A DNA stretch of 64,000 bases, from assembly GCF_001625215.2 (NCBI RefSeq), contig NC_030385.2, forward strand, positions 1,047,135-1,111,134, in the 5' to 3' direction. Shown here one piece after another: positions 26,690-64,000 of this stretch. The stretch comes from Daucus carota subsp. sativus. Its lineage: Eukaryota; Streptophyta; Magnoliopsida; Apiales; Apiaceae. The position numbers and the translations under genes are program-made. The notes under the pieces were generated by a model that saw only the letters and a program-made list of their open reading frames with translations, had not been told where the DNA came from and did no database searches. Every line of letters starts with the position of its first letter. The stretch's first letter is position 1.

Positions 26690-26749
26690 TTTAGTGTTTG
26701 AATTGGTTGTAAAGTCGCAAGTAGCCAAGTATAACAGTACTGCTCGTAT

Positions 26750-26759
26750 AAACCCTAAA
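26750..26759 (+). promoter_or_regulatory. Telo-box-like motif in the promoter or leader of F-box gene A
   Basis: AAACCCTAAA about 60 bp upstream of the start codon. The same block recurs upstream of gene B (32353-32361) and gene B' (42986-42995), each followed by cccaattgtatttctt. Gene B'' has lost it (AATCAAAATCCC at about 51200). Telo boxes are common near plant transcription starts; a function here is inference. Confidence 0.5.
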
Positions 26760-28908: not shown

Positions 28909-31900
28909 TATAGAAAAATTCATGTTCGTTTTGAAGATAATGGTTTTCAAGATGTTGCGGCGAAAGTGCACGATGAATTGGTTTTCCAGCTTCCTACAAA
29001 TTATTCATTTGACCTATAGCATATATTTAAAGTTTTGATAATTTTAGCAAACCGTTAGTATAAAATTGTAATTGAATGACTTATTATAGATATTTATAAG
29101 ACGACATAAGTTGATGAATATGTTTGTAATTAGGATGATATTTTACAATGGTTAATGGCTTACACTTTTTTATGTGAATAAATATGAATTCAGGATGATA
29201 TTTTAAAAAATATTGTATTTTTACATTTAATTGGGTGTGATCATTTAGATTGTGATACACATTAGTTGTAAACGAGAGTCTACGTTTGTATATGGATATT
29301 GGTAAAATGGGATGAACTTAGAAAAAATATCATTAGTATTGCTGGACAAACAAAAACTTACAATTGAATACTACAAATAAATTGGTGAATGAATATTTCA
29401 TTGCCGGTTATGGGATTTTATAAAATTTACGAAAGTTACTACACTTGTCAATTAATCATCCCTATCATGTCTTTCATATCATGTCGTGTTCTTATGCAGT
29501 GAGTTCCGTCATAAGTAATTAGGGTAGTCCACTAGTTAAAAAATACAATGAATATTTGGTCATCACTTATTCATTTATTGTTGAAAATAATATTACATTT
29601 CTTTTCTTTCGAATTTAAATATATAGAAAAATTAGGCTCCACCGTCAAAAATACGACAGAAATTTTTGTGGCAGAGTAATTGTTTTATTTTATTACCAAC
29701 GGAACCTCTTGTACTAATTCACAACATAATTTTGAATTTATGCCCGATATTTAAATAAAGGGCGGAGCGAAAAGAAAAGAAAGAACTATCTTAATTAACC
29801 CGATTACATAGATTTAGTGTTAGATATCCGTTGTAAATAGCCTCAAGTTGGTATTGCATGGTATTTGATCCATCTGGTTGTTTTAGCAGCAACAATAGTC
29901 TTAACAATTTTAATTTAAAAATTAAGTTACTGGCTATAATCTTAGTTACTGGATTAAGTTACTGGCTGTAATCTTATTTACTGGTATTGCATCTGACACT
30001 TGCATTTTTTTCTTAGTTTACCTCTACTACAAATTATATAGTGCTAAAAATCATTAATAAAATATGTCAGCTTTTACGAAACACACTATCTCATATCTAC
30101 CTACAAACAACTTAAAATCGTTAATAAGATATGTTTATATTTATGAAAGAGTTGGTCTCATATCTACCAACAGGCTACAACTTAAAATTGTTAAGAAATT
30201 ATGCTTATATGTATGAACCGTAAAGAGACCTTAAAAGGATGATTTTCACTAACCATAATAACTTAATTGACTAGCTATCTAACTATTTTAGTCAAATACC
30301 AATAAAAACCCATTAAAAGTCCCCGGAGTAAAAATCCATAAGGCCGGAGGCCAACATAAAATTCATGTAATAACTTGACATCTTACACCAGTACAACAAG
30401 ACCAATAAATATACACAGAAATGCCGGAGGCCGACATCAAATCCATATATCTTAACATCTTACAGCAGTACAACAAGATCAATACCAATAGTCGCGTAAA
30501 ACAAGTAAAACACCAGCTACTTAAATAACAACCTGTTGTTGCATCTTCCAAACTCTAAATTCCCTCCTTGCCAAAAGCAGACAGCACAGCTGGAGTAACT
30601 GCAAAGCAATATGCAGTAAGTCTTTCAGATTTCTACCAATTTAGAAGGATCATATTAGATGGATTAGTGTTTATTCCTAGACTCACTTCCCAACTTGACC
30701 AAGACAAAAACAAAGAAAGTGAATCAAATTTAAGAGAGGAATAAACAGCGAAACAATCTAAAGTTAATTAAAGATTAAGATAATTTTAATTAAGAAAAGA
30801 AAAAGAGATACAACATAGTGCTGCATATTGCTGCATTTTACTTGCTATGTTTGAAATTTTACCGGAACACCGTTAAAGCTTCCTAATTAAAGTTCTCAGT
30901 CTCTGAAATTATCTTCAGGAGAATTTTTTCAGAAATAGTTGTGCCTAATGTGGCTCAACCAAAATCAGAGAAGTGCTCTGAAGATTAAGCCCAAATTTTT
31001 GTGCCCCTTTAAGAGGATCAAATTATTTGAATTTTCGATCCATATATTAATCCATCAGGTAGAAAAATGAACCATAAACATCAAACCGCTAGCAAAGCAC
31101 ATTAATTAGTATATCTAAGCAAAAATCACATGCAATGTACATGAAAATTTAAGAAACTTGGAAACCTAAGACACATAATTATTAGCATTTAGAAGTTGCA
31201 TTAAACAACTTACCATATAGTTACCCTTGTAGTTCAAAGCCTTTAAGTGACAGAAGGCTCCCTCGGAATTGAACTACTGGCATATATATTCTGAATTGAT
31301 CAACAAATGTTCCTTTCTTCATATCATAAAAGAAGCATGCATGAGAGTGATCTCGTGCAACAATTAAACTTTCCATCGCCCAGATAAATAAGAACATAAG
31401 CTATCCTTTTAGCGGGCTCTATATTAAACTTTTCAGTCCACCAGAGGTTTCCATCAACCTCATCCAACGCCCACAGAGTCAGCACGGATGCCCTCTCCCC
31501 TGATCTCAGGATCAAAGCAATTGAACCTTCAAAATCCAAGACCTCTGATATTATTTCACCAGAGGCAGGATACTTATGCATTCTAAACACCTCATCTTGC
31601 AAATCAAACGACAGAATTCCATCCGTACCAGGGAGACACAATACCCTACTATCAACACAAACACATTCTGAGATAGGATCAAACTTGAAACCTTGCATTT
31701 CTTTAGGAACCTGAATCGGTTTCCAGGAATTCGCATTAAAGGAGTACAACTCCGCCACCATTCCCTCTTTCTTTTCACCATTATCCAAAAGGTCACTAAG
31801 TCTACCAAACACAACCCTAAGAATCTTATAATCACTGCTCAGAGGATCAAAACCAAATCCAATTTTATTTACGACCCCAAGACGCGCGTAATGAGCCAGG

Positions 31901-32440
31901 GGAAGTAACTTATCCATCCTCATCAATGGATTCCAAATGTATAAGAAAACAAAAAATATATCACCAAGAATAACAAGACCATTACAAGAACGAATAAGCA
32001 GCTGCGCCCGAACATCAGATATATACCTTGGGAGACTGAGCTTAACTGAATTTTCGCCAAGAGTGTCCATAAAGAGATCTTGCGATTCATCACTTCTTGA
32101 CACAACTCTGAGTGTTGAAAAGGGGTGTTGTTTCTTCTGAGAAATGGCAAGGTGGGCTTGGATGAATTTAGGGTTTGAGATGATTGATTTCCATGATTTG
32201 CATACAGATTTGCATCGAAGGAGTGAAAGTACGGGAAGCCATGAGAGTATTTGGAAGATCAAGTCTTCTGCTAGATGATTCATGGATGCCATTTTAGTGT
32301 TTGAGTCGGTTGTAAAGTCGCAAATAGCCTAGTACAGTAGGACTGCTGGTATAAACCCTAATTCCCAATTGTATTTCTTCGGTTTATATAAGTTACACGC
32401 GCTGTAACTGTTTATACACAAGCTGGAGCATAATTTTTTG
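28909..32440. repeat. Segment B, B-type F-box unit
   Basis: Collinear with 37225-43060, 47695-51200 and 52680-54276. It starts near the word gataatggttttcaagatgt, runs through ttacatttaattgggtgtga (29226), a ccatctggttgtt block (29869), a 3' flank with ccaacatcaaatccata-type words, and ends in the F-box gene and promoter. It has no large insertion, so it serves as the empty-site reference for the other copies. Confidence 0.8.
31324..32292 (-). CDS. F-box protein (unit B), C-terminus lost by a 4-bp insertion
   Basis: The open frame gives 322 residues: F-box at about 4-48 (LAEDLIFQILSWLPVLSLLR) and most of the FBA-type domain (RSCNGLVILGD, FGFGFDPLSSDYKILRVV, AELYSFNANSW). At 31366-31373 it has four extra bases compared with paralogue B' (aacaattaaac against aacaaac), which shift the frame after YLGDGKF, add a short unrelated tail and stop at 31324. 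The displaced remainder, about 48 codons, is still readable in another frame down to 31221, ending near LLSLKGFE. So the lesion is recent. The truncated protein could be made but lacks the end of its substrate-binding domain. It may be a young pseudogene; I cannot exclude that the truncated form is used. Confidence 0.8.
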   Translation of the reverse strand: MASMNHLAEDLIFQILSWLPVLSLLRCKSVCKSWKSIISNPKFIQAHLAISQKKQHPFSTLRVVSRSDESQDLFMDTLGENSVKLSLPRYISDVRAQLLIRSCNGLVILGDIFFVFLYIWNPLMRMDKLLPLAHYARLGVVNKIGFGFDPLSSDYKILRVVFGRLSDLLDNGEKKEGMVAELYSFNANSWKPIQVPKEMQGFKFDPISECVCVDSRVLCLPGTDGILSFDLQDEVFRMHKYPASGEIISEVLDFEGSIALILRSGERASVLTLWALDEVDGNLWWTEKFNIEPAKRIAYVLIYLGDGKFNCCTRSLSCMLLL

Positions 32441-36145: not shown

Positions 36146-37223
36146 ATCTTGTTGCTCAAATCCTTCAAGTTGCTCAAACCCTTCAAGTAAGACCAGGCTC
36201 CCGCTGACCATCATCTTCTTCCTTTCTTCCTGTCATCATAAACGATGTATCCAGCACCATCATCTTCTGCAAGAAACTGGCCATCACCCACTACTAGAAA
36301 AATGGGTAAAATTAACCGCCATTTCCGGTCAATTTTAGTTAAATTTGACATGATCTGTTATTTTATTTGGGTACCCATAAGATCTCTTATTTTATTTGAC
36401 ATGATCCTTATTTTATTTGGGTACCCAAATAAAATAGTACATGATCTATCTTCATATGGGGCTCAATATTAAACTTCTTAGTCCAAAAGAACTTGCAACC
36501 AACATCATCCAATGTCCATAAACTAAGGATGATTGATTCATTCTCACTAGATTTCAAGATGAAACCAATAGAGCCTTCAAAATCCAAAGCATCTGACATT
36601 CTTACACCCGTTTTAGGGTACTGATATGTTTCAAACACCTCATAATGCAAATAAAACAACAGAATCCCATTCGCACCTTGAAAACACAGTACCCTACTAT
36701 CAACACAAACACATTCTGAGATCGGATCTTGCATAAAACCACGCATTTCTTCAGGAATCTTAATCGGTGTCCAAGAATCCGTATTGAAGGAGTACAGCTC
36801 CGCCACTATTTGACATATTTCTTCCACCCCATGGTTAATTTTAACAAGCACAACCCTAAGAATCTTATAATCATTGCTCAGAGAATCAAACCCAAACCCA
36901 AAATTAACCACAAACTCAAGACTATATAAACATGGTTTTCTCCGGGGCTTAATTTCCCGGAGCTTGGGAAGCAACTTAATTAAAAGACCTAGTCAACGGA
37001 TTCCAAATGTATAACAAAACAACATGTATATCACCAAGAATAACAAGACCATTACAAGAACGAAAAAACATCTGCGCCACATCAGATATATACCTTGGGA
37101 GACTGAGCTTAACCGAATTTTCGCCAAAAGTATCCATAAAGAAATGCTGCAAAAAATCACTTCTCAACACAACCCTGAGTGTTGAAAAGGGGTGTTGGTT
37201 TTTCTGAGAAATGGCAATGAATT
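36146..37223 (-). pseudogene. F-box pseudogene A' (no F-box, frameshift, insertion)
   Basis: Paralogue of the A gene with several lesions. The first about 52 codons, including the whole F-box, are missing: the copy begins inside AISQK and is joined to unrelated B-flank DNA at about 37217-37225. A 4-bp duplication (ttaattaaaa against ttaaaa, near 36978) shifts the frame after WNPLTRSF. The FBA-type part then reads on to about 36426 (FGFGFDSLSNDYKILRVV, ECVCVDSRVLCFQG). At 36290-36420 an insert starting CACTACTAGAAAAA interrupts the C-terminal part, and about 50 bp are deleted near 36210. Two open frames remain (36976-37281 and 36408-36974); neither can give a normal F-box protein. Confidence 0.85.
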
Positions 37224-41863: not shown

Positions 41864-42925
41864 TTAATCTTGTCGTTCAAAGCCTTTAAGTGACAGAAGG
41901 CTCCCACTGAATTGAACTGCTGACATATGTATTCTGAATTGAACAAATGTTCCTTTCTTCATATCATAAAAGAAGCATGCACGAGAATGATCTCGTGCAA
42001 CAAACTTTCCATCGCCGAGATATATAAGAACATAAGCTATCCTTTTAGCAGGCTCTATAATATTAAACTTTTCAGTCCATGAGAGGTTTCCTTCAACCTC
42101 ATCCAACGCCCACAGAGTCAGCACGGATGCCCTCTCCCCTGATCTCAGGATCAAAGCAATTGAACCTTCAAAGTCCAAGACCTCCGATATTATTTCACCA
42201 GAGGCAGGATACTTATGCATTCTGAACACCTCATCATGCAAATCAAACGACAGAATTCCATCCGTACCAGGGAGACACAGTGCCCTACCATCAACACAAA
42301 CACATTCTGAGATAGGATCAAACTTGAAACCTTGAATTTCTTTAGGAACCTGAATCGGTTTCCAGGAATCCGCATTATAGGAGTACAACTCCGCCACTAA
42401 ACCCTTTTTCTCTTCACCATCGAAAAGGTCACTAAATCTACCAAACAGAACCCTAAGAATCTTATAATCACTGCTCAGAGAATCAAAACCAAATCCAATT
42501 TTATTTACGACCCCAATATGCAAGTAATGAGCCGGGGGAAGTAACTTACCCAACCTAATCAACGGATTCCAAATGTATAACAAAACAACATGTCTATCAC
42601 TAAGAATAACAAGACCATTACAAGAACAAATAAGCAGCCGCCGCTCATAAGCTATATACCTCGGGAGACTGAGCTTAACCGAATTTTCGCCAAGAGTGTC
42701 CATAAAGAGATCTTGCGATTCATCACTTTTCGTCACAACCCTGAGTGTTGAAAAGGGGTGTTGTTTTTGCTGAGAAATGGCAAGGTGGGCTTGGATGAAT
42801 TTAGGGTTTGAGATGATTGATTTCCATGATTTGCATACAGATATGCATCGAAGGAGTGAAAGCACGGGTAGCCATGAGAGAATTTCGAAGATCAAGTCTT
42901 CTGCTAGATGATTAATGGATGCCAT
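41864..42925 (-). CDS. F-box protein with FBA-type domain (unit B'), intact
   Basis: A 353-residue protein starting MASINHLAEDL. F-box at about 4-48 (ILSWLPVLSLLRCISVCKSW). FBA-type domain follows: CSCNGLVILSDRHVVLLYIW, NKIGFGFDSLSSDYKILRVL, LVAELYSYNADSWKPIQVPK, VLTLWALDEVEGNLSWTEKF, KFVARDHSRACFFYDMKKGT and the tail SLLSLKGFERQD. It is the full-length reference for the frameshifted gene B, with which it shares nearly all its sequence. Likely an SCF substrate receptor; the substrate is unknown. The conserved GTAAGT donor (on the plus strand cttaccatatag, about 41853) follows the stop. Confidence 0.9.
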   Translation of the reverse strand: MASINHLAEDLIFEILSWLPVLSLLRCISVCKSWKSIISNPKFIQAHLAISQQKQHPFSTLRVVTKSDESQDLFMDTLGENSVKLSLPRYIAYERRLLICSCNGLVILSDRHVVLLYIWNPLIRLGKLLPPAHYLHIGVVNKIGFGFDSLSSDYKILRVLFGRFSDLFDGEEKKGLVAELYSYNADSWKPIQVPKEIQGFKFDPISECVCVDGRALCLPGTDGILSFDLHDEVFRMHKYPASGEIISEVLDFEGSIALILRSGERASVLTLWALDEVEGNLSWTEKFNIIEPAKRIAYVLIYLGDGKFVARDHSRACFFYDMKKGTFVQFRIHMSAVQFSGSLLSLKGFERQD

Positions 42926-43060
42926 TTTAGTGCTTCAATTGGTTGTAAAGCCGCAATTAGCCAAGTATAATAGTACTGCTCGTATAAACCCTAAATCCCA
43001 ATTGTATTTCTTCGGTGTGTAATTTACACAGTGTGTCTGTTTATACATATAGTGTATACG

Positions 43061-50080: not shown

Positions 50081-51139
50081 TTACTCTAGTCGTCCAAAGC
50101 CTTGAAGTGACAGAAGGCTCCCACGGAATTGAACTACTGATATGTATCTTCTGAATTCCACACATGTTCGTTTATTCATATCATAAAAGAAGCCTGCACG
50201 AGAATAATCTCGTGCTACAAATTTTCCATCCCCTATATAAATAAGAACATAAGCTATCTTTCTAGCCGGCTCTATAATATTAAACTTTTCAGCCCACAAG
50301 AGGTTTCCATCAACCTCATCCAACGCCCACACAGTCAGCACCGATGCCCACTGATCCCCTGATCTCAGGATCAAAGCAATTGAACCTTCAAAATCCAAGA
50401 CCTCCGATATTATTTTACCAGAGGCAGGATACTTATGCATTTTAAAGACCTCATCATGCAAATCAAACGACAGAATTCCATCCGTACCTCGGACACACAG
50501 TACCCTACTATCAACACAAACACATTTTGACATAGGATCAAGCTTCAAACCTTGCATTTCTTTAGGAACCTGAATCGATTTCCAGGATTCCGCATTAAAG
50601 GAGTACAACTCTGCCACAATTCCCTCTTCCTCTTCACCATCGAAAAGGTCACTAAATCTACCAAACACAACCCTAAGAATCTTATAATCACTGCTCAGAG
50701 AATCAAAACCAAATCCAATTTTATTTACGATCTCAAGATGCAAGTAATGAGCCCGGGGAAGCAACTTACCCATCCTAATCAACGGATTCCAAATATATAA
50801 CTTAACACCAGTACCAAGAGTAACAAGACCATTACAAGAACCAATAAGCAGCTGTGGCACATCAGATATATACCTTGGGAGACTGAGCTTAACCGAATTT
50901 TCGCCAAGAGTGTCCATAAAGAAATCTTGCGATTCATCACTTCTCAACACAACCCTGAGTGTTGAAAAGGGGTGTTGTTTTTTCTGAGAAATGGCAAGGT
51001 GGGCTTGGATAAAATTAGGGCTTGAAATGATTGAATTCCATGATCTGCATACTAATTTGCATTGGAAAAGTGAAAGTACCGGGAGCCATGAGAGTATCTG
51101 GAAGATCATTTCTTCAGCTAAATGATTAATCGATGCCAT
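50081..51139 (-). CDS. F-box protein with FBA-type domain (unit B''), intact
   Basis: A 352-residue protein starting MASINHLAEEMIFQILSWLP. F-box at about 4-48; the helix here reads LFQCKLVCRSWNSI, the most diverged F-box of the array. FBA-type domain: GSCNGLVTLGTGVKLYIWNP, GFGFDSLSSDYKILRVV, GIVAELYSFNAESWKSIQVP, KFVARDYSRAGFFYDMNKRT and a tail SLLSLQGFGRLE. The frame runs ten codons further upstream but opens with GTG, so the paralogue-matched ATG is preferred. Its promoter lacks the AAACCCTAA block of the other copies, so its expression may differ. Confidence 0.9.
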   Translation of the reverse strand: MASINHLAEEMIFQILSWLPVLSLFQCKLVCRSWNSIISSPNFIQAHLAISQKKQHPFSTLRVVLRSDESQDFFMDTLGENSVKLSLPRYISDVPQLLIGSCNGLVTLGTGVKLYIWNPLIRMGKLLPRAHYLHLEIVNKIGFGFDSLSSDYKILRVVFGRFSDLFDGEEEEGIVAELYSFNAESWKSIQVPKEMQGLKLDPMSKCVCVDSRVLCVRGTDGILSFDLHDEVFKMHKYPASGKIISEVLDFEGSIALILRSGDQWASVLTVWALDEVDGNLLWAEKFNIIEPARKIAYVLIYIGDGKFVARDYSRAGFFYDMNKRTCVEFRRYISVVQFRGSLLSLQGFGRLE

Positions 51140-51541
51140 GAGAGTAGTGTTTGATTGGCAGGTGATCACAAGAAAGATGATACTGAGCTCTCTTGTTAAT
51201 CAAAATCCCAATTAAATTATTTAGAGGTGTGTAAGTTGCACCATATGACCGTTATTAATTAAGTTGAGCGGGCCTACATTTATTTTTCAAATTTGATTTC
51301 AATTTATGACATGGGATATATTTAAAATCTTGAAATCAAATATATTTTAGTATTTAATTGATATTATTTATTAAGTAGTTTAATATATTTTATTCTTTAT
51401 AATAATGTAAGTTAGCTAAAAGTATTGGTTCTTATCATATATATATTTCACAAAAGAATTATCAAGTAAACAAAAAATATTCCAATAACTAAATATTCTA
51501 ATATGGTGTATAATTATTAGGAGATATAACATGAGAATAGG

Positions 51542-52679: not shown

Positions 52680-54276
52680 TATCATATATTATTATGTTTT
52701 GGTAATTTTAACAAATCGTTACTATAAAATTATTGATATTTATAAGATGATATAAGTTCATGAATATGTTTGTACGATGATCTTTTTTATGATGGCTTAC
52801 ACATTTAGATGCGAATAAAAATGAATGCGAGATTCTTTAAAAACTATTGTATTTTTACATTTAATTGGGTCTGATTACTTAGATTATGCTTAGGGCTGAG
52901 CAAAACCGAACCAGAACCGAAGAACCGAACCGAATTGTGAAAATTCGGTCCGGTTCGGTTCCAAGATTTTCAAAATTTCGGTTTTTTCGGTTTTTCGGTC
53001 CGGACCGAATTAAATTTCGGTTCGGTCCGGTCCTTTTAAAAAAAATTCGGTTCCGGACCGAATGGACCGAACTTTTTATATTAATAATTTAATATATCAA
53101 ATATAATATATTAATTATAATCTGTAAGAGTAAGTCTGCAGCCACCACACCCACATACTTATATACACATACACTCAGATGCGACTCCCTAATCAAATCA
53201 GCAGCCCCGTCTGAAACCCTAATCAGTAATCAGTATCAAAGTTCCATACCCACTACTACCAATCTCAAATCGACTATTGCGAATCTCAAATAAAGATTCA
53301 ATAATCTATTACCAAATCGAGATTCAAGCATTCAAGTGTGAAGAATCGGAGCAAGAGCGTGCTGTTTGAAGAATCAGTGCATGTGGAGGCAGGTGTAGGC
53401 TATGCAACACTGAGTTGATTTTAATTCTTTTATGAACTAGCAGACTAGTAGTAATGATTCTGGAGCCTGCTGTTTGTGTTGGTTATATTAGCTTTTTTAT
53501 AATTTTTGGGGAAAAACTTCGGTTCTGAAGGGAAAAACCGAACCGAACTGAATTATTTCGGTTCGGTTCCGGTTCGGTCCATATGTAATTTCGGTCCGGT
53601 TCGGTCCAAAAAAAATCAGAAATTCGGTTTTCGGTTCTTTCGGTTCGGTCCGGTTCTGGACCGAACCGACCGAATGCTCAGCCCTAATTATGCTACATAT
53701 TAGTTGAAGATGAGAGTCAATGTTTGTACATGGATGCTCGTAAAATGGGAAGGAATTAGAAAAATATCTTTTTTGTTATTGGACAAACAAACAATTTATG
53801 ACTGAATATTTCATCACGGGTTACGGGTTTTTCTAAAATTTACGAGAGTTACTACATTTGTTAATCATCCTTATCGTGTCATATATATCATGTGTGTACT
53901 TATGCAGTGAGTTCCGCCATAAGTAATTGTGGTAGTTCACTACTTAAAAACAATGAATATTCAGTTATAACTTATTCATTTATTGTTGAAAATAGTATTA
54001 AATTTCTTCTCTTTCGAATTTAAATAAATAGGAAAACTACGCTTCACTGTCAAATATAAGACATAAATTTTTGTCACAAGTAATTTTGTTATTTTATTAC
54101 GGAAAGGGAACCTCTTATACTAATTCACACCACAATTTTAAACTTACTTCCGATTTCTGAATAAAGGGCGGAGCAAAAACAAAAGAAAGAACTGTCGTAT
54201 TTAACTTAATTCCGTCATATCTAGTGTTACAAATCTGTTCTAAATAACCTCATATGTCGTAATGAATTGCGGAGTT
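52680..54276. repeat. Partial B-type unit cut by the LTR retrotransposon
   Basis: Collinear with 29010-29800 and 37350-39010 (gttttggtaattttaacaaa, acatttaattgggtctgatt, ctcttatactaattcacacc, gtaatgaattgcggagtt). It contains the hAT-like MITE and ends where the retrotransposon LTR starts. Confidence 0.75.
52891..53686. mobile_element. hAT-like MITE with ATTATGCT target duplication
   Basis: A 796-bp element with ends TAGGGCTGAGCAAAACCGAA and the complement of TAGGGCTGAGCATTCGGTCG, flanked by an exact 8-bp repeat ATTATGCT (52883-52890, 53687-53694). The empty site is attgtgctacacattagttg in the paralogous units (about 29250, 48112). Subterminal CCGAACC/GGTTCGG motifs fill both ends. Two short open frames inside are repeat translations and not genes. 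Confidence 0.9.
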
Positions 54277-54965
54277 TGATAACGCCAATCTCCGATCCCG
54301 GTCCTTCCTCCGCCGTGACTGGTGGTTCCGTGGTGCAGCTGCTGGATGGGAGCCTACAAAACAACACCGGCGGGGGGGTTTTGCCCCAAAGCGCCTCCGG
54401 CGTGAGAGTAAGCGTAGGCTTCGGAAGGATAAAGATTAGAGAAAGTGCTATCTATGTGTGGTGGTGAAGGTGTATGGCTGGTGGTTGCTGGTGGCTGAGA
54501 GTGTTTGAGTATATGCTGAGTGTAAGTGTGTGTATGAATGAGTGTAAAGAGAGAGTGAAGTTACCCTTAAACTCTGGATCCTTGGTCTATTTATAGGCCA
54601 AGGATTAGGGTTTAAGGGTGCGTACCTGGATCCTGGTCCTACACGTGTAAGGGTTTGATCCCCTACACGTGTCCAGGTGTCAGCGTAGGAGTAGTATTTT
54701 GGAATGTTCCCTGGCTTGTCTCTATCGCCAGTAGTTGACCGTTATGTTTTGTCTTCATTGTGTCAGTCTGTGACTTGTGCAGCAAGTGTCGGCTGGTACA
54801 AATGTATCCGGGTGGGTAGCATGTTCTCAGGTGTCCGGGTAAATTATGTTGTCCGGGTGGCATGACCTGGTAAGCCTGGGGGATGTCCCAAGGTGTTGGC
54901 GGCCACCCGGGGTATGGACTCCTCTAAAGGACCCGGGTATTGCTGAATTAGGTTACACCCTATCA
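54277..54965 (-). repeat. 3' LTR of the Tat element
   Basis: 689 bp. In element orientation it begins TGATAGGGTGTAACC and ends GGCGTTATCA, so it has TG...CA ends in a TGATA/TATCA inverted pair. Its left boundary is fixed by the paralogous empty site and its right boundary by the adjacent polypurine tract. Confidence 0.85.
54587..54595 (-). promoter_or_regulatory. TATA box of the LTR promoter, inside an inverted repeat
   Basis: TATAAATAG on the element strand, flanked symmetrically by ATCCTTGG and CCAAGGAT, so the box sits in the loop of a possible hairpin. The start of transcription would be near 54560. Confidence 0.65.
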
Positions 54966-54981
54966 TTTGCCCCCCACTCCC
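54966..54981 (-). other. Polypurine tract
   Basis: GGGAGTGGGGGGCAAA on the element strand, immediately before the 3' LTR. It is the usual plus-strand primer site of LTR retrotransposons. Confidence 0.8.
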
Positions 54982-55408
54982 TTATATAGATTTTCTATGT
55001 GAGGGAGTAGAGCGGAGTTTTTCTTGTATTTGCTTTTGTATCCGGGTATTCATGTACGGGTAATGACTTTGGCTCCTTGTCCTGTTAGACCCGGGTAGAG
55101 GTAAACTTTTTCATGTTTGCCGTGTTGAGTGTATCCGGGTAACAGATGTTTGCTCCGCCGTCCGGGTGGACCCGGGGAAGGATCGAGAGTTCTTGTCTTC
55201 TTTCGCATCTGTCGGCGGGATCATGCCCGGTTCGGTTTTTGACGCCCGGGTCTGGGGGATGTGAAACGTTTGTAATATGAAGGGGTTTTTACAACTGTTT
55301 GTTTTGAAAATTGAGCCATCGCGCCTTTTGAGGGGGTGAATTATTACAGCTGTAATAACTCCACTTCCCCCAATAGGAAACTGCCACGTCGCCTATGATC
55401 TGGTGGTC

Positions 55409-55416
55409 TATAAAAA
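55409..55416 (+). promoter_or_regulatory. TATA box of the convergent gene inside the retrotransposon
   Basis: TATAAAAA on the plus strand, with a CCACGTCG (ACGT core) word about 25 bp upstream. The likely start is near 55440. The leader exon from there to the donor CACG/GTAAGT at 55592 contains no ATG. Confidence 0.6.
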
Positions 55417-56340
55417 GGTTTCTCTCCAACCCCACTTCTCTTTTTTATTTTCACTTCGAGTTTTTCTTTCTTTTTCTTCATAGTTCTTCTTTGCGCTTTT
55501 GCCCCCATTCGTGTGTCTGTTTTTCGAAAAGCTTCGCTGGAGTTTCCGAGGTCATTGTCATCGCAGTTTTTGCTCCGTCGCCGGTTAGCACGGTAAGTCC
55601 CCTTTCTGTTCTCTTTGTTTGTCTCTTTTATTTCATACCCCATTGTTGTTGTTTTGCGTGAGTTTTCTTTTCGAAATGCTTGTTTTTTGGTGCGTTGATC
55701 GTTGCGTAGATAGTTTCGTGTGTTGTGTATGAACTGCGTGTGTACTTGTGGTGTGTTTCGTTTATAGGTTTTGGGAGGTGGTTCGATTTTGGGTGGTTTT
55801 GAGTGTTTCGGGTGGGTCTGTGGACTTAGGCTTTGTTTTGGAGTTCTTAGCTTCTGAATTTTGGTTTTGTGTTCTTGGCGGGATATATGTATGTATATGT
55901 GTATAGCGGTTAGGGTTTGAAGTTTGATCCATGATTTTTGGCTTGAAAATGATTTAGAAACTGTTTGCGGCTGTTGGGATCCTTGGGGTTTTGACTGGAC
56001 CCGGGTAGGGATTTCTTGCCCGGGTTGGGTAGGTGGCATGGAGGTTTCTATGTGGATGGGGGGAGTACCCGGGTAGAGGTCTTGTTGTTTCTTGGCACTT
56101 GTAAACTTTTCCATGATAGTGCGGTTGTAGGCTCGGGATCCGGGTAGCGTTTCCGTGACTAGGAGTCTTCTTTCCTTGTAGATATGAGAATGGGACCCGG
56201 GTAGACTTGTGTACTTGTGTTTTTCTTGCCCTTTTTCGCTTTTCGGAACTGTTAAGTAACTCAGGTTGTCTGTCGCTTTCTAACCCGGTCATTGTCTGTC
56301 TGCAGGTTTGCCGTATTTTGATAAAAATCTGTGGAAGAGT

Positions 56341-57526
56341 ATGGCTAACGAACATTTTGCTGCTGCTTTGAGGAACCTGGGGGGAATTCATTCGATCCCC
56401 AAGTCTACTCCTAAGCCTAAGACCGGAGCTGGGAAGAATGATGAATCCGGGTCTTCTAGGCAAGAGGCAACCGGCGGTGAATCCAGCGCTGCAATGGAGA
56501 AAATTGCCTTGGGAGAGACTGAGGAGGTTGTGGAAGCTGGCAGCCAAGAGTTGGTGACCCGGGGGAGGAAGAGGAAACAGGTCTCGGCGCAGAAGGCCCC
56601 TGCTAAAGTTCCCAAAGTTGGCCGGGGAAAAGGGGTTTTGCTGGATTCTGACTCAGATTCTGATGATGAAGATGATGACGGGGAAGGTGCCCGGGTTCCC
56701 CTTGGTGCCGGGAAGTACTCTGCCCGGGAAATAATTAAGATAATGTCGGAGATTCCGACCGAGGAAGACTGGGTTAGGATGGATGATTCCGGGATGGTGA
56801 GCACTTTCAAGGAACTAGGGAGTCTTTGGGGTCAGGTGAGTATGTCTTCACTTTTGTGTTGTCTTTTGTATGCTCTTTCTTATGTATGTTTCTGATCCTG
56901 TGAGTCCGGTGTTTGCAGCTGGGGTTTTGTCTAGCCGGGTTCAATACCGTTGCTTTTAATTTGATAAAATCGGAAAGGACACTGCTGAGACTTTTGGGGC
57001 AAGAGCCCGGAAAGCTGAGTCGGACTTGGCCCTGGAGAGGTCGGCTAAGGAGAAGTTGGAGTCCGAGTTAGAGAAGCGGGTGGAGGAGGCCGAAACCCGA
57101 TTGGAAGCCGAGTGGAAGCGGAAACTGGAGGAGGCTGAGACCCGGGCGGGTGATTTTGAGAAGAGGGTGGCCGGGCTCGAGGAGGATGCGGAGAAGCTGA
57201 AGAAACAACTCGAGGACCGAAAGGAACCAGAAGTTGTGATCGCTGATTTCAAGAAATCTGAAGAGTATAAGGGTGATCTGGCCAATGCTGCCGCTGCGGA
57301 GGTTGTCCAATGCTGGAATGTTGCCGAGAGGCACATCAAAACAGATCCGGTGGCAGATCTGACCAGTTTCATCAACCTTTATATCCAGGCCAAGGATGAT
57401 GTTTCGGCCGGCAAGGGTGAACCCGAACCCTTCGAGGGTCCTTCTCCGAGCTTCATCGCTCCAGCCAATCCGGTTGCTCCCGTCGATGCGGCTCTCCAGA
57501 CAAACAACCTTCCTCCTGCTACTTAG
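56341..57526 (+). CDS. Antisense gene of the Tat element, nuclear coiled-coil protein, possibly frameshifted
   Basis: After a leader intron (55593-56305, GTAAGT to CTGCAG) the first ATG of the spliced transcript is at 56341. Exon 56341-56835 encodes about 165 residues with a basic RGRKRKQ, a KVPKVGRGKG stretch (candidate nuclear signals), a serine-aspartate acidic run and SAREIIKIMSEIPTEEDW. It ends at a clean CAG/GTGAGT donor. The natural acceptor (TTTGCAG, 56918) leads after about 50 codons to a stop because of an apparent one-base shift near 56960. A weaker acceptor at 56977 would keep the frame open to 57526. The last exon is a coiled coil (about 57010-57240), then FKKSEEYKGDLANAAAAEVV and a proline-rich end. 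Such proteins, with similarity to plant Transposase_28-type gypsy proteins as I recall them, lie antisense to pol in other Tat elements. Function unknown. Confidence 0.65.
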
Positions 57527-57746
57527 TCACTTTTTCTTTGATCTTGAATATGTTCTTTGAAACAATCTTTTGTATCTCTGGATTAGTTTTTGCTGGATTC
57601 GAATATTTATCCGAGGTCCGTGTGGACCCGGGATTGTGGATGCTTGCTTTGCTGCTTTTTATCAAATATTTTCTTGTCATATTTGTTTGTGAATGCTTTT
57701 GTATGCTTTGTGTATTCCAGATTGGCTGTTTGCAATAGTTCTGCAC

Positions 57747-58640
57747 TTAGAAAATTTTCTAAGCAATTGTAACGCAGGTGTGCCCGGGTCAGTTGTACCC
57801 CGGGTGGATCGCTTTTAGGATACTTTGTACTTAGAAAATTTTTCCAAGTAAATAAATAAGGAAATAAAATAGATGGATCCGGGCAATGCTTACCCGGGTT
57901 GATTGCTTTATTCATGTTTGTACTTAGAAATTTTTCCAAGTAAAATGAACCGTTGGACCCGGGCAACATCTACCCGGGTTGCACTTAGAATATTTTTCGA
58001 AGTAGATAGAATAGATGGACCCGGGCAATGCTTACCCGGGTTGATTGCTTTATATGTGCTTGCACTTAGAAATTTTTCTAAGGAAATAAAATAGATGGAT
58101 CCGGGCAATGCTTACCCGGGTTGATTGCTTTATTCATGTTTGTACTTAGAAATTTTTCGAAGTAGATAGAATAGATGGACCCGGGCAATGCTTACCCGGG
58201 TTGATTGCTTTATATGTGCTTGCACTTAGAAATTTTTCTAAGGAAATAAAATAGATGGATCCGGGCAATGCTTACCCGGGTTGATTGCTTTATTCATGTT
58301 TGTACTTAGAAATTTTTCGAAGTAGATAGAATAGATGGACCCGGGCAATGCTTACCCGGGTTGATTGCTTTATATGTGCTTGCACTTAGAAATTTTTCTA
58401 AGGAAATAAAATAGATGGATCCGGGCAATGCTTACCCGGGTTGATTGCTTTATTCATGTTTGTACTTAGAAATTTTTCGAAGTAGATAGAATAGATGGAC
58501 CCGGGCAATGCTTACCCGGGTTGATTGCTTTATACATGTTTGTACTTAGAAATTTTTCCAAGCAAATAAAATGGATGGACCCGGGTAGATCTTTCCCGGG
58601 GTGATTGCTTTAGTATGCTTTTGGTTGCCTTAGAAATTTT
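57747..58640. repeat. 80-bp tandem array (160-bp dimers) with AATAAA on both strands
   Basis: CTTAGAAA marks each monomer: 57984, 58065, 58145, 58225, 58305, 58385, 58465, 58545 and 58629, spaced 80 bp apart in the regular part, with looser copies at 57747, 57830 and 57923. Two variants alternate, so the true period is 160 bp. Each monomer has two inverted repeats, CCGGG(CAATGCTTA)CCCGG and CTTAGAAATTTTTCTAAG. AATAAA occurs on the plus strand at 58085, 58245, 58405 and 58565 and on the minus strand at 58134, 58294 and 58454. The array lies between the ends of the convergent gene and gag-pol. Tandem repeats in this region are known from Tat/Ogre elements. Confidence 0.9.
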
Positions 58641-58786
58641 CTAAGTAAATAACAATATAGATTCATTAGTAGCAAAAGACTTCATTCATATTCAGACGAT
58701 TACACAGCTTTGATAATGATCAAAAGTACATGATTGCTTTTTAGGGGTATATGGCTGTCTTCTAGGATCCTTCCTTCTCGTTGATT

Positions 58787-61700
58787 TTACTGATAGAACT
58801 TCCTCAACCTAAGACCATGCCAGGTGTTGGATACTTCTGACCCGTCCATATGCTCCAATTTGTAGGTGCCCGGCCTTAGGACTTCTTTGACTTTGTAAGG
58901 GCCTTCCCACTTAGGCATCAGCTTGCCAGTGTTGGTTGGGTCAGAGGCTTCGGTGTCTCGTAGGACCAGGTCTCCTTTGTGAAAATTCCTAACCCGGGAT
59001 TTTTTGCTGAAATGATCCCGGGTCTTCTCTTTGTACTTTTCCATTCTTGCGATTGCCTGATCTCGGACCTCATCTACCAAGTCCAGGTTGACCCGGAGTC
59101 CTTCTTCATTCGCAATTTCATCAAAGTTGATCGCTCTGTGGGAAGGTGACCCGACTTCGATTGGGAGCATTGCCTCCGTTCCATAGGCCAATTTGAAGGG
59201 AGTTTCTCCGGTGCTTGTCCGAGGACTAGTTCGGTATGACCAGAGGACATGAGGTAGTTCTTCTGGCCACTTGCTCTTGCTTTCTTCCAGCCTTTTTTCA
59301 ATTCCTCTCAGGAGGATCCGGTTGGTGACCTCTACCTGGCCATTTCCTTGAGGGTAGGAGACTGAAGATTTTTTATGCTTGATGCCCCTTTCGGCCAGGT
59401 AGCTTTCGAAGTCCGACCCTATGAACTGGGGTCCATTGTCTGAGACCAGGACTCTTGGTAGCCCGAATCTCATCAGGATGTTGTCCATGAATCGGATGAC
59501 ATCTTGCTGGTTGATCGTCCGCATTGCCTTGGCTTCAACCCACTTGGTCATATAATCAATGGAGACAAGCAAATATCTGAGGTCTCCTTTAGCCCGGGGA
59601 AAGGGTCCCATGATGTCTATCCCCCATACAGCAAAGGGGATCGGGGATAAGACCGAGGAGGGTAGGACAGGGCTTACCCGGGGCACGTTGCTGAAAAGTT
59701 GGCAATTTTTGCACTTCTTAACAAACTCGACGGAGTCTTGATGAATTGTTGGCCAGTAGTAGCCTTGCCGGATGATTTTATATGCCAGGCCTTTTGCCGA
59801 CATGTGATCTCCACAGATCCCTTCGTGAACTTCTCTTAGACAATATTCGGCCTCCTCCGGACCTATGCATTTCAGGATTGGGGATGAGTAGGTCCGGCGG
59901 AAGAGTGTTCCTCCTTCGACAAAAAATTTGGCCGCCTTAGCCTTCAGCCGTTGTGCTTTCCCCTTGTCTTCGGGTAACTCTCCCTTCTCTATGTAGTTGA
60001 TCAGGGGAGTCATCCAGGTAGGGTCGTTGTTGATTTCAAAGATTTCTTCATGATCTATTGTTGGCTTGTGCAATTCCTCGAAATAGACTGAGCTATCCAG
60101 GTCTGCTGAATTTTGGACCAACCTGGAGAGGTTGTCCGCTTCAGCATTTTCTTCCCTGTTGACCTGCAAGATCTTGCATCCGGGGATCAGAGTGAGGTAG
60201 CCTTTTACCAAGGCCTGATACTTGGTCAGGATCGGGTCTTTGGCAAGGTACTCCCCATTGGTCTGTCTGACCACGATCTGGGAATCACTGTAGATGGTGA
60301 GGTTCCGGATTGACAAGGTCCGGACCAACCTCAATCCCGCTAATAGGGCTTCATATTCTGCTTGATTGTTGGTTGCTGCGAAGTTGAAAGAGATTGATGT
60401 TTTGATGGTGAACCCATCTGGGCTCTTCAGGATTAGCCCGGCTCCTGATCTTTCGGTTGTTGAGGAACCGTCGACATGGAGTATCCAAGACCCCGGGTTA
60501 GACTCTACCGGGGCTTCAGGTTCGGTTTCCATGGGAGTTGTTTGATTTTCTGGGAAGTTGCATTCCACTACGAAGTCTGCCAAGACCTGGGCTTTGACTG
60601 CTGTCCGGGGTAGAAACGTTAGGCTGAACTGGCTAAGTTCGATTGCCCAGTTCACCAGTCTCCCGGAGATGTCTGGCTTGTGAATGATTTTCCTTAGCGG
60701 TTGGTCTGTGACAATCCTGATTTCTCTTCCTTGGAAGTAATGTCTGAGTTTTCTGGACGCGGTGATCAGTGCGAAAGCAAATTTCTCTAAGTTGGGGTAT
60801 CTGGTCTCCGCATCTTTGAGGACCTGGCTGACATAGTAGACGGGCTTCTGCTGCCCGGCTTCTTCCCTGATTAAGGCTGCCCCGACGGCAAAGGGACTGG
60901 CTGACAGGTATAGGTAGAGAGGTTCTCTGGGTAAGGCTTTTGTCAGGATCGGGGGTTTGGACAGGTATGCTTTGATCTCATCAAGGGCTTTTTGGCAATC
61001 CGGGCTCCATTCTACTAATTTCTGGTTTTTTGCCCCTTTTAGCAACTCAAAGAAGGGTAGACATCGTTCAGCAAGTTTGGAGACAAACCTTCGAAGTGCC
61101 GCTAAGGAGCCTGCTAGCTTTTGGACTTCCCTCTGAGTCCGAGGTGGTTGCATCTCTTGTACAGCTTTGATCTTCTCCGGGTTGGCTTCGATACCCCGAT
61201 TGCTTACCATAAAACCCAAAAATTTTCCAGCTTCTACCCCAAAGGTGCATTTGTCCGGGTTGAGCTTTAGCTTAGTCCTTCTCATGTTCTCAAAACATTC
61301 TCTGAGATCTGAAATGTGACCCGGGACTGATGTTGATTTAGAGATGATGTCGTCGACATAGCATTCCAAATTTCTTCCAAGTTGGTCTTTGAAAATTTCA
61401 TTCATTGCCTTCTGGTATGTAGACCCGGCGTTCCTTAACCCGAAAGGCATCAGTTTGTAAGCATACACTGCCCGGTGGGTTATGAAGGCTGTTTTGGCTA
61501 TGTCTGCTGGGTTCATCTTAACCTGGTTGTACCCGGAGAAGGCGTCCATAAAGCTTAACATCAGGTGTCCTGATGTGGCATCAATAAGCTGGTCTATGCT
61601 TGGTAGAGGATAAGGGTCCTTCGGGCATGCCGCATTCAGATCCGTGTAGTCAACACACATCCTCCACTTTCCGTTTGCTTTCTTTACCATGACTACATTA

Positions 61701-64000
61701 GCTAGCCACTCCGGGTATTTGATCTCGCAGATGATATCTGCCTTCATCAATTTGCCAACTTCCTCATCTATTGCCTTCTGCCTTTCTGGTGCAAAATTTC
61801 TTCGTTTTTGTTTGACCGGTTTTTTCTTGGGGTCCACATCCAGGCTGTGCATTGCTAGTGACTCATCCAACCCGGGCATGTCGTCCGGGCTCCAGGCAAA
61901 AACATCTGCGTAGCTCCGAAGTAGTTGGATGAGTTCTTCTTTAAAAACGGTATCCAGGCCTTTTCCAATTTTGATTTTCCTTGTCGGGTTGTCTTTCTCG
62001 ATCAGGACAGACTCGGTTTCGACTGCAGCTTCGACCTTAGTCAATTCTTGTGCCGAGATCATTTGTTGGATCCGGGCATCGGTGTTCTTTTCAACAAAAT
62101 TTTGAGCTGGGCTCATGGTTGCTTTCTGGTTGCTTTGTCCAGGATCAGGGTTGGTTGCTCCCGGGTTCTGACTGCCCGGGTCTAGGTCGATGACCTGGAC
62201 TTCACCCTTAGGGTTTGTTCTCGGGTAAGGTCGATGTTTTTTGTTGCTTCTCTGTTTTTGGAAGACGGTAGCCTTTCTCTTGTTGTCCATATGGGTTTCC
62301 GCCATAACCAAGGCTTGGCTGTAGCATACCCCGGCTGTTTCCGAATCTCCTTTGACTTCGCCTACCCCGAACGGAGTTGGGAATTTGAATTTCAGGTGCG
62401 TGACAGAAGTGATGGCTTCGATTTTGTTCAGACCCGGACGGCCAATGATCACATTGTAAGAGGAAGGAGTGTCTGTGACATAGAATTTGATCATATGGAC
62501 GACCTGGGTTGGGGCTGTGCCAAAACGAACCGGGAGGTAAAGGGTTCCTAGTACCGGGACAATGCTGTTCCCGAATCCGTATAAGGGGTCCTCCCTGTAG
62601 TCGTTCATCCGGATGTTCCCTAGTTGCATTCGGTCCATGGTATGTTTGAACAAGATGTTTGCTGAGGAGCCGTTGTCGACTAGGATCCGTCTGACCTCAT
62701 TCTCGGCTATGTCCAAGGTTACCACCAGGGCCTGATTGTGACCCCGGGTGACGCCCTCGAAGTCCTTGCTGCTGAAGGAAATGACTTGTTCGGGGAAGGC
62801 TTGGATGGACATGACTTCTTGACAGGAGTCCGGGCTGGGAGGAGGGGAACAGGATCCGCCCAGTACTACGTTGACAATGTTCTTTTGTTTCCCCGAACCC
62901 TCTCCCTTGTTTGCTGTGTTCCGGGCGATGTATTGCCCCATGTTGCCTTTGCTGATTTGCTCTTCAATGAAATACTTGAGGGATATGCAGTTTTCCGTTT
63001 TGTGACCGTGGGTGCCATGATAGTCACAGTGTCTGTTGGTGGGTCTGCTTTCAGGAGGAGTCTGCATGGGTTTTGGTGGGTAGTAGAAGGGTTTGTCCCT
63101 GACCTCCTTGAGTATGTCCTCGCGGGATCTGTTTCGAGGAGTCCATTCGGGCTCTGGTTTTGGTTCCCTGGTTGCTTTGTTTGGACCGGGGTCACTTCTG
63201 GACCCGGATCCCTGTTGGCTGGTCCTCTTGGAACCTGATTGCTGGATGAAGTTTGTCTGTCTGTCCGGTTTGAATTTCTTATCCTGGTGATATTCTTTCC
63301 GGGGTCTATCCTCGACCTGTTTTCCTCTTGAGCTGCCCTGTCTGGTCATTCTCATGGCTTGGAGTACGTCGGTTTCTTTGATGAATTTTGCAGCCATGGC
63401 ATAAGCAGCCGCCAGGCTCTGGGGTTCTTTGTTGATCAGCTCGACAACATATCTCTCATTTTGTTCCGGGTCTAGGTTTCTTCTGAAAATGCTCAAAGCC
63501 TCACGCTCGTCCAGGTTGGAGATTTTGTTGATTGCTTCCTGGAAACGTTTCATGTAATCTGAGAGTGCCTCATTGTCATACTGACGAACCGTTTCCAGGT
63601 GACACATATGAAGTTCATGTGTCTTGTTTGCTCGGAACCTTCTGAGGAAGGCTTCCCTGAAGTCTTTCCAGGATCCGATGCTCCGGGAGGGGATCCGGCT
63701 GAACCATCTCTGGGCCCCTCCCTTGAATGTGGATGCGAAGAAGCGGCATTTTGTCAGATCATTGTAGTAGTATATCAGGGCTATCTGTTCAAAGTAGTGC
63801 AGGTGTTCCTCCGGGTCTCCCAGTCCATTGAAAGATTCAAAGTTGTAGTGTTTCATACCCTTTTGTCGGGGTATGGATTCCAGGGAGTGGCTGAAGGGGG
63901 TCAGGGTTCCCCCAATTTCAAGCCCGGCATCATTTCCGATTTTCCGGTTGAGTTCATTGATCATGTCCCTGAGGTTGGTCTGCCCCGGTCTCTCATCCTC
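58787..64000 (-). CDS. Gag-pro-pol polyprotein of the Tat retrotransposon (partial at the right edge)
   Basis: Open without interruption for 1725 codons from the ATG at 63964 and for 12 more codons up to the edge, so the true start lies outside. Numbering from that ATG: Gag about 40-200; a CxxH-type knuckle CDYHGTHGHKTENC at 313-326; aspartic protease with VDNGSS at 429-434 (DNG where D-S/T-G is usual); reverse transcriptase about 745-920 with YVDD at 869-872; first RNase H about 1013-1125, where the usual TDAS is LSAS so the first catalytic aspartate is missing; a second RNase H about 1158-1285 with HVDGS, QAEYEAL and YSDSQ, catalytic residues intact; integrase with an HHCC finger (H1380, H1387, C1418, C1421) and D1450, D1509, E1545; and a GPY-type end PKWEGPYKV at 1684-1692. 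The polyprotein makes and inserts element cDNA. Confidence 0.95.
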   Translation of the reverse strand, partial: EDERPGQTNLRDMINELNRKIGNDAGLEIGGTLTPFSHSLESIPRQKGMKHYNFESFNGLGDPEEHLHYFEQIALIYYYNDLTKCRFFASTFKGGAQRWFSRIPSRSIGSWKDFREAFLRRFRANKTHELHMCHLETVRQYDNEALSDYMKRFQEAINKISNLDEREALSIFRRNLDPEQNERYVVELINKEPQSLAAAYAMAAKFIKETDVLQAMRMTRQGSSRGKQVEDRPRKEYHQDKKFKPDRQTNFIQQSGSKRTSQQGSGSRSDPGPNKATREPKPEPEWTPRNRSREDILKEVRDKPFYYPPKPMQTPPESRPTNRHCDYHGTHGHKTENCISLKYFIEEQISKGNMGQYIARNTANKGEGSGKQKNIVNVVLGGSCSPPPSPDSCQEVMSIQAFPEQVISFSSKDFEGVTRGHNQALVVTLDIAENEVRRILVDNGSSANILFKHTMDRMQLGNIRMNDYREDPLYGFGNSIVPVLGTLYLPVRFGTAPTQVVHMIKFYVTDTPSSYNVIIGRPGLNKIEAITSVTHLKFKFPTPFGVGEVKGDSETAGVCYSQALVMAETHMDNKRKATVFQKQRSNKKHRPYPRTNPKGEVQVIDLDPGSQNPGATNPDPGQSNQKATMSPAQNFVEKNTDARIQQMISAQELTKVEAAVETESVLIEKDNPTRKIKIGKGLDTVFKEELIQLLRSYADVFAWSPDDMPGLDESLAMHSLDVDPKKKPVKQKRRNFAPERQKAIDEEVGKLMKADIICEIKYPEWLANVVMVKKANGKWRMCVDYTDLNAACPKDPYPLPSIDQLIDATSGHLMLSFMDAFSGYNQVKMNPADIAKTAFITHRAVYAYKLMPFGLRNAGSTYQKAMNEIFKDQLGRNLECYVDDIISKSTSVPGHISDLRECFENMRRTKLKLNPDKCTFGVEAGKFLGFMVSNRGIEANPEKIKAVQEMQPPRTQREVQKLAGSLAALRRFVSKLAERCLPFFELLKGAKNQKLVEWSPDCQKALDEIKAYLSKPPILTKALPREPLYLYLSASPFAVGAALIREEAGQQKPVYYVSQVLKDAETRYPNLEKFAFALITASRKLRHYFQGREIRIVTDQPLRKIIHKPDISGRLVNWAIELSQFSLTFLPRTAVKAQVLADFVVECNFPENQTTPMETEPEAPVESNPGSWILHVDGSSTTERSGAGLILKSPDGFTIKTSISFNFAATNNQAEYEALLAGLRLVRTLSIRNLTIYSDSQIVVRQTNGEYLAKDPILTKYQALVKGYLTLIPGCKILQVNREENAEADNLSRLVQNSADLDSSVYFEELHKPTIDHEEIFEINNDPTWMTPLINYIEKGELPEDKGKAQRLKAKAAKFFVEGGTLFRRTYSSPILKCIGPEEAEYCLREVHEGICGDHMSAKGLAYKIIRQGYYWPTIHQDSVEFVKKCKNCQLFSNVPRVSPVLPSSVLSPIPFAVWGIDIMGPFPRAKGDLRYLLVSIDYMTKWVEAKAMRTINQQDVIRFMDNILMRFGLPRVLVSDNGPQFIGSDFESYLAERGIKHKKSSVSYPQGNGQVEVTNRILLRGIEKRLEESKSKWPEELPHVLWSYRTSPRTSTGETPFKLAYGTEAMLPIEVGSPSHRAINFDEIANEEGLRVNLDLVDEVRDQAIARMEKYKEKTRDHFSKKSRVRNFHKGDLVLRDTEASDPTNTGKLMPKWEGPYKVKEVLRPGTYKLEHMDGSEVSNTWHGLRLRKFYQ

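Follow-up and report, generated by a model that had tools for sequence, protein, structure and literature searches.

Conserved palindromes in the tandem array of a carrot Retand-type retrotransposon differ between two clades of its antisense protein

Background

Long terminal repeat (LTR) retrotransposons of the Retand lineage have, in the accessible part of Vicient 2025 (PMC11963269), a long region between pol and the 3' LTR (2.9-6.6 kb), LTRs of 315-1194 bp, an antisense gene for a protein with a TRP28 domain and tandem arrays adjacent to pol. The domain occurs in 97% of the published Retand clusters, arrays are listed for the celery and hogweed (Apiaceae) clusters and, according to the same text, what the antisense TRP28 proteins and the arrays do is unknown. 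In maize the Grande element also has an antisense accessory gene between pol and the 3' LTR, gene23, whose own promoter drives its transcription and whose protein is nuclear (Vicient and Casacuberta 2020, accessible part of PMC7264820). Here we describe an element of this kind on the minus strand of a 64,000-nucleotide stretch of the carrot genome (Daucus carota subsp. sativus, C5:1047135-1111134), hereafter the window, and compare it with copies found in 441 Mb of genome sequence on 11 contigs.

Judging by the accessible text of both papers, the architecture itself is already published (PMC11963269, PMC7264820). A conserved array palindrome, an element-wide motif and a difference in protein and motif are undescribed in the accessible part of PMC11963269, and that of PMC7264820 names no cis motif for Grande gene23 and other antisense open reading frames (ORFs). 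The window copy further differs from the Retand lineage in having lost its TRP28 exon. Among the titles and abstract openings surveyed, with subscription journals mostly outside the survey, we found no Retand report of a conserved array palindrome or of a joint difference in protein and motif. A likeness also exists to VANDALs and VANC, another kind of transposon and protein. In Arabidopsis this transposon protein has short, family-specific target motifs in tandem repeats (accessible parts of PMC5735166 and PMC10398659), and the array in the window is like that system in having its motif in tandem repeats of noncoding DNA. Binding and demethylation are shown for VANC in these texts; in the family described here a comparable binding is putative.

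Results

Palindromes and not poly(A) signals are conserved in the array

A preliminary description of the window had proposed that an antisense gene converges on gag-pol at a tandem array with poly(A) signals on both strands, and had read the array as a two-way terminator. Both the convergent gene and an array where it meets gag-pol are confirmed, and they are found again across the family. The array has the following features:

57745..58657, plus strand: tandem array (main part 57979-58612, period 80/160), whose unit has one AT-rich and two CCCGGG palindromes
58085..58570, plus strand: AATAAA at 58085, 58245, 58405 and 58565, with further ones at 57851 and 57863
57907..58454, minus strand: AATAAA ending at 57912, 58134, 58294 and 58454

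The 80-bp repeat with its 160-bp higher period was confirmed at 57979-58612 (96% matches) and fills most of the gap between the two genes, and the two inverted repeats per monomer were likewise found. In the main array 80-bp units of two types take turns, and one type has AATAAA on both strands. The hexamer positions previously listed are right on both strands, and those at 57851, 57863 and 57912 are additional.

With up to 3 mismatches allowed, the genome has 193 matches to the array core and 0 to a reversed control, and among the first matches listed we found no long array outside elements of the kind that a satellite would form. For the array comparison 39 places were fetched, and 36 other non-identical copies with 338 monomers were usable. 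Spacers L018 and L028 were dropped as identical to L017 and L027, L019 as lacking a pol anchor and L020 as lacking a last-exon match (it was kept in the monomer count), and later counts omit L048, whose protein is the same as that of L047, and L065, which has no array in the counted piece. In the L019 and L025 regions (C3:47816672-47818717 and C1:55495870-55497364) two array matches overlap or adjoin, as if arrays had been duplicated.

Across the 36 copies and 338 monomers the two CCCGGG blocks reach 1.80 and 1.83 bits, the AT-rich palindrome reaches 1.68 bits and the minimum, 0.77 bits, falls in the loop that separates the CCCGGGs. The AATAAA columns average 1.13 bits (plus strand) and 1.19 bits (minus strand), both below the monomer mean of 1.46 bits, and only 12 of 74 (plus) and 15 of 74 (minus) six-column windows score lower. 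Each monomer conserves two ACCCGGGT palindromes together with the AT-rich one, not the poly(A) signals. With the minus hexamer present in 13 and the plus hexamer in 96 of the 338 monomers (insertion columns were cut out, so that raw counts may differ slightly) and both columns poorly conserved, the two-way terminator is not supported and fails the conservation check set for it in the preliminary description.

Among the other spacers 24 of 36 have the plus hexamer, 14 the minus hexamer and 10 both. Summed over the spacers, the raw count of AATAAA is 94 on the plus strand and 26 on the minus strand, compared with 33 and 100 in first-order shuffles, which make a rough null since array repeats are not independent. 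The plus-strand bias is common to neighbouring A-rich words. Counted by copy, plus exceeds minus in 21 of 39 (window included), minus exceeds plus in 6 and 12 are tied; in the 13 copies of the clade described below, which together have 82 plus and 9 minus, the corresponding numbers are 6, 3 and 4. If the array has a role in ending RNAs at all, that role is mainly for the antisense gene.

A second clade carries another palindrome

A search with the antisense protein added 18 further copies, selected for the most part for their low identity or their absence from the array search. Of these, 13 carry ATCCGGAT/TCCGGA arrays and four carry ACCCGGGT arrays, and one is without an array in the counted piece. 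Copies were classed by their array counts, so that the array CCCGGG:TCCGGA totals, 654:13 in 39 copies and 2:189 in 13, only repeat the classing. Independent of it are the 1300 bp leading to the antisense stop, which give a ratio of 152:55 vs 13:45 in the ATCCGGAT copies (Fisher 3e-12, from copies that are not independent). In a tree of the antisense protein (53 rows) one branch with support 100/100 separates the palindrome classes, and the 13 ATCCGGAT copies are one clade. The full agreement of palindrome class and protein clade, by way of a single switch, suggests a correlation between the two.

In five ATCCGGAT copies that were measured the integrase is 90.3-97.3% identical to that of the window and the DNA 78-89%. 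For the last antisense exon, identity to the window is 47-56% within the ATCCGGAT clade and 50-93% among ACCCGGGT copies; these ranges overlap, and therefore distance alone does not decide the palindrome. Against a ACCCGGGT query the TRP28 domain is 56-69% identical in ATCCGGAT copies (some matches being partial), 70-100% in the fetched ACCCGGGT copies and at most 39% in other families, some unfetched matches excepted. Pol pieces of the five ATCCGGAT copies have 0-1 TCCGGA; L058 and L068 have one CCGG there and L060 three CCCGGG. The spacers of L057, L059, L071 and L072, all with ATCCGGAT arrays, have 16-23 plus-strand and 0-1 minus-strand AATAAA.

The CCCGG motif is enriched and retained through the element

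The motif of the array is also over-represented outside it, including in the coding region that faces the antisense gene:

58787..64000, minus strand: gag-pol, frame open up to the window edge at 64000, enriched in CCCGG/CCGGG

Between 54277 and 57700 ACCCGG and CCCGGG are the top two over-represented hexamers, with 28 sites (both strands counted) vs about 2 expected for the first and 14 vs about 1.3 for the second. They again rank first and second in the gag-pol part (19 vs 2.3 and 10 vs 1.7), where CCCGG occurs 28 times vs 10.3 in 2000 synonymous codon shuffles and CG overall is depleted (187 vs 269 in such shuffles). In 39 of 39 rows either ACCCGG or CCCGGG ranks first among the over-represented hexamers upstream of the array. 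In eight TRP28 elements from other families the number of CCCGGG is 0-5 over roughly 4.5 kb, with no enrichment, six coding pieces of such elements have 0-3 CCCGG/CCGGG, near expectation, and L075, a nearer relative (integrase 70%), is without CCCGGG, TCCGGA or an array of this type. Five host frames used as a control show a small CCCGG/CCGGG excess in two (3 vs 0.5 and 3 vs 0.3).

Another TRP28 element, L050 (C3:7089218-7093703), has an 89-bp, 6.5-copy array between its antisense stop and pol (2848-3626, reverse strand), with CCGTAGCG words in place of CCCGGG. None of these words is clearly enriched upstream of the array and one is weakly enriched downstream, therefore an element-wide motif is not general. 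On the pol side of a further TRP28 element (L055, 3697-3918) lies a GC-rich 50-bp repeat with GCGCGC words.

Window CCCGG/CCGGG sites are shared in 292 of 775 cases across 31 copies that are 40-67% identical to the window over the stretch compared, vs 2-28% for seven control word pairs in the same copies, and the CCCGG/CCGGG count in these copies stays at 16-34 per 1600 bp. When CG loss was polarised with 15 triplets, 17 of 471 CGs inside the motif were lost vs 135 of 735 others. The same difference is seen in exons (15/343 vs 123/741) and in 5' noncoding DNA (2/114 vs 17/104), and unpolarised losses in the ACCCGGGT clade are 12% for the motif vs 43% for other CG. Two control TRP28 groups, with small numbers, lost 27 of 48 and 12 of 33 CGs in CCGG context, near the 52% and 36% lost among other CG, and thus lack this protection. 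In the ATCCGGAT clade the losses are 24/179 for CCCGG(G), 21/96 for TCCGGA and 427/1201 for other CG. Polarised gains of the motif are not clearly raised (CCCGG 15/1215, a rate of 0.0123 vs 0.0107 overall); an unpolarised gain-rate test was set aside, as gains and losses depend on each other in such a comparison. The CCCGG motif is retained, not re-created.

The antisense protein across the family

The TRP28 domain (PF04195) scores above its curated cut-off in the upstream exon of all six relatives scanned. The last exon has zero internal stops in 38 rows (window fragment included), 99 of its 108 genomic matches are without a stop and the median ratio of nonsynonymous to synonymous substitution rates (dN/dS) is 0.17 over 134 pairs; this exon is under purifying selection. 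Its predicted fold has one long and three short helices, with a predicted local distance difference test score (pLDDT) of 82.7 and a predicted template modelling score (pTM) of 0.38. Comparing the profile of this exon in the family with that in other TRP28 elements gave a weak match (probability 60, E 8.5e-5, 76 columns).

The antisense gene of the window copy is damaged

On the plus strand of the window the antisense gene comprises the following:

55269..56205, plus strand: promoter-side block, holding TATAAAAA at 55409-55416 and GTAAGT at 55593
56206..56207, plus strand: deletion junction, with 1.38 kb (vs L010) or 1.33 kb (vs L012) missing, including the TRP28 exon of relatives
56306..56832, plus strand: middle coding exon (exon 2), its ATG at 56341 internal to the longer frame of relatives
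56833..56919, plus strand: second intron, donor and acceptor retained in 12 aligned copies with small changes
56920..57526, plus strand: last exon (exon 3), a coiled coil plus helices, with a frame break here between 56920 and 56960

The TATA box, ATG-free leader and frame end of the preliminary description all stand: the box is the TATAAAAA listed above, zero ATGs lie between it and the GTAAGT, and the stop ends at 57526. It had also proposed a leader intron followed by a gene starting at the first ATG. Its signals are present, as the first ATG after GTAAGT is at 55676, within the proposed intron, a TGCAG acceptor ends at 56305 and the next ATG in spliced order is 56341. The simple gene structure did not hold, this being a damaged copy without the upstream TRP28 exon. 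The proposed intron joins promoter-side sequence to the exon 2 acceptor because the piece with the TRP28 exon is deleted.

Nine other places in the genome match at least 886 query bases of the promoter block at 70-89% identity, and in 9 of 9 a TRP28 exon or match lies between promoter block and last exon; among the 150 TRP28 matches scored none is in the window. In the relative L010 the same frame is open upstream of the position matching ATG 56341, and the exon 3 frame break was seen in comparison with this copy. Upstream of exon 2 the promoter of 12 copies could not be aligned with the window. Absence of TRP28 as a trait of the family was considered and rejected, since relatives carry the exon and the window has lost the piece; it is owing to this deletion that the window copy lacks the TRP28 domain, a Retand feature.

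Structure and surroundings of the element

Two further features mark the end of the element within the window:

54277..54965, minus strand: 3' LTR, its partner 5' LTR lying beyond the window at C5:1112101-1112789
54966..54981, minus strand: purine-rich stretch adjoining the 3' LTR, which from its sequence we take to be the probable polypurine tract

The two LTRs are 99.86% identical (one mismatch across 689 bp) and a target-site duplication, GAGTT, flanks the element at either end. The pol stop codon is at 58787-58789, as previously placed. The region from pol to the 3' LTR (54966-58786, 3.8 kb) and the LTR length are both inside the published Retand ranges, and the antisense ORF between pol and the 3' LTR, another Retand feature, is present. 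The element is a young Retand-type (Tat) LTR retrotransposon, a class assigned from architecture. An Rfam scan of 53000-64000 gave zero matches, and in Pfam neither of the two antisense coding stretches of the window, nor an ORF from its gag region, had a match above the cut-offs. Elsewhere in the window a tandem cluster of similar minus-strand frames (25595-26779, 31324-32328, 36408-36992, 41864-42934 and 50081-51199) presumably represents F-box genes.

Discussion

The palindromes are most likely DNA sites of a sequence-specific factor. Double-stranded DNA fits better than RNA hairpins because the difference between the clades is symmetric and L058 and L068 have units with one palindrome only. 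We tentatively favour, at somewhat below an even chance, a reading in which the array supplies palindromic sites for a factor acting in trans, most likely the antisense TRP28/coiled-coil protein, that counters silencing or regulates transcription. The array where the genes converge would be a cluster of such sites, ACCCGGGT here and ATCCGGAT in the sister clade, with further single sites spread through the element. The factor would read these sites by binding and, by analogy, may counter the silencing of the copies that bear them or regulate their transcription. The TRP28 protein is the first candidate because the element itself encodes it as a conserved antisense product, because it varies with the palindrome and because it belongs to a group for which DNA binding is predicted in the accessible part of PMC11963269, a point that we count in favour. 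VANC is a precedent for a transposon protein that uses short motifs arrayed in tandem in such a manner (PMC5735166). A wider claim, that TRP28 proteins of Retand elements are sequence-specific anti-silencing or activating factors, a counterpart of VANC among LTR retrotransposons, whose palindromic targets are amplified in the array and retained through the element, with protein and palindrome switching together and the pol protein changing little, we regard as doubtful; if true, it would account for the presence of both an antisense gene and arrays in Retand elements.

Several observations weigh against the palindrome-site reading. The classes were drawn from the array counts, and with one switch only the protein and the palindrome may merely share a tree. 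ACCCGGGT copies down to 50% last-exon identity keep the same palindrome, and the few TCCGGA in the pol pieces of ATCCGGAT copies mean that pol has not switched. That clade's own palindrome is not the one it keeps best, and motif gains are not clearly raised. The nine other TRP28 elements examined are without motif enrichment, and here gag-pol coding DNA is enriched too, unlike VANC targets, which are confined to noncoding regions in the accessible parts of the VANC papers. The fold prediction for the TRP28 exon is unusable (mean pLDDT 36). Lastly, the antisense gene of the window copy is broken despite the young insertion, which fits either a factor supplied in trans or damage after insertion.

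Among other explanations, the array poly(A) signals may serve mainly the antisense gene as a one-way terminator, with gag-pol-strand signals kept rare and full-length RNA thereby able to reach the 3' LTR. The strand bias of AATAAA over shuffles and in the 13 ATCCGGAT copies speaks for this idea, which is compatible with palindromic sites, but 12 of 36 spacers have no plus-strand AATAAA, the bias extends to neighbouring A-rich words and the palindromes are left unexplained, so we consider it unlikely. Neutral growth of the array by slippage or template switching, with different seeds behind the palindromes of the two clades, would agree with the single switch and with the accessible part of PMC11963269, where arrays occur in about half of recent published Retand elements and, within a cluster, differ in their sequence and in the number of copies. 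It is a rather unlikely account given that the palindromes are kept while the loop drifts and that enrichment and protection of the motif extend beyond arrays.

Ending of both antisense and gag-pol RNAs by AATAAA on the two strands would suit the window copy and the 10 of 36 other spacers, which have both hexamers, but their poor conservation and the rarity of the minus hexamer make it very improbable for the family. We think it highly unlikely that the array is chiefly a double-stranded-RNA hub, in which convergent transcription yields small RNAs that silence the element; the genes are convergent, reports of antisense transcription exist for Grande and Retand and the hub itself has been proposed before (accessible part of PMC7264820), but conservation of specific bases is not what it predicts. 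Inverted repeats acting as hairpins within gag-pol RNA, for example in packaging or export, would account for the pairing of the two CCCGGG arms in nearly all monomers. The arms show few double-sided changes, the AT-rich palindrome has its pair 5-16 unpaired in 141 of 319 monomers and each L058 and L068 unit contains one ATCCGGAT, making a role of this kind hardly probable.

A conserved palindrome that differs between the two clades of the antisense protein ties the array and the protein together. If each clade's protein prefers its own palindrome, this would be a second kind of transposon with sequence-specific self-recognition, possibly directed against host silencing.

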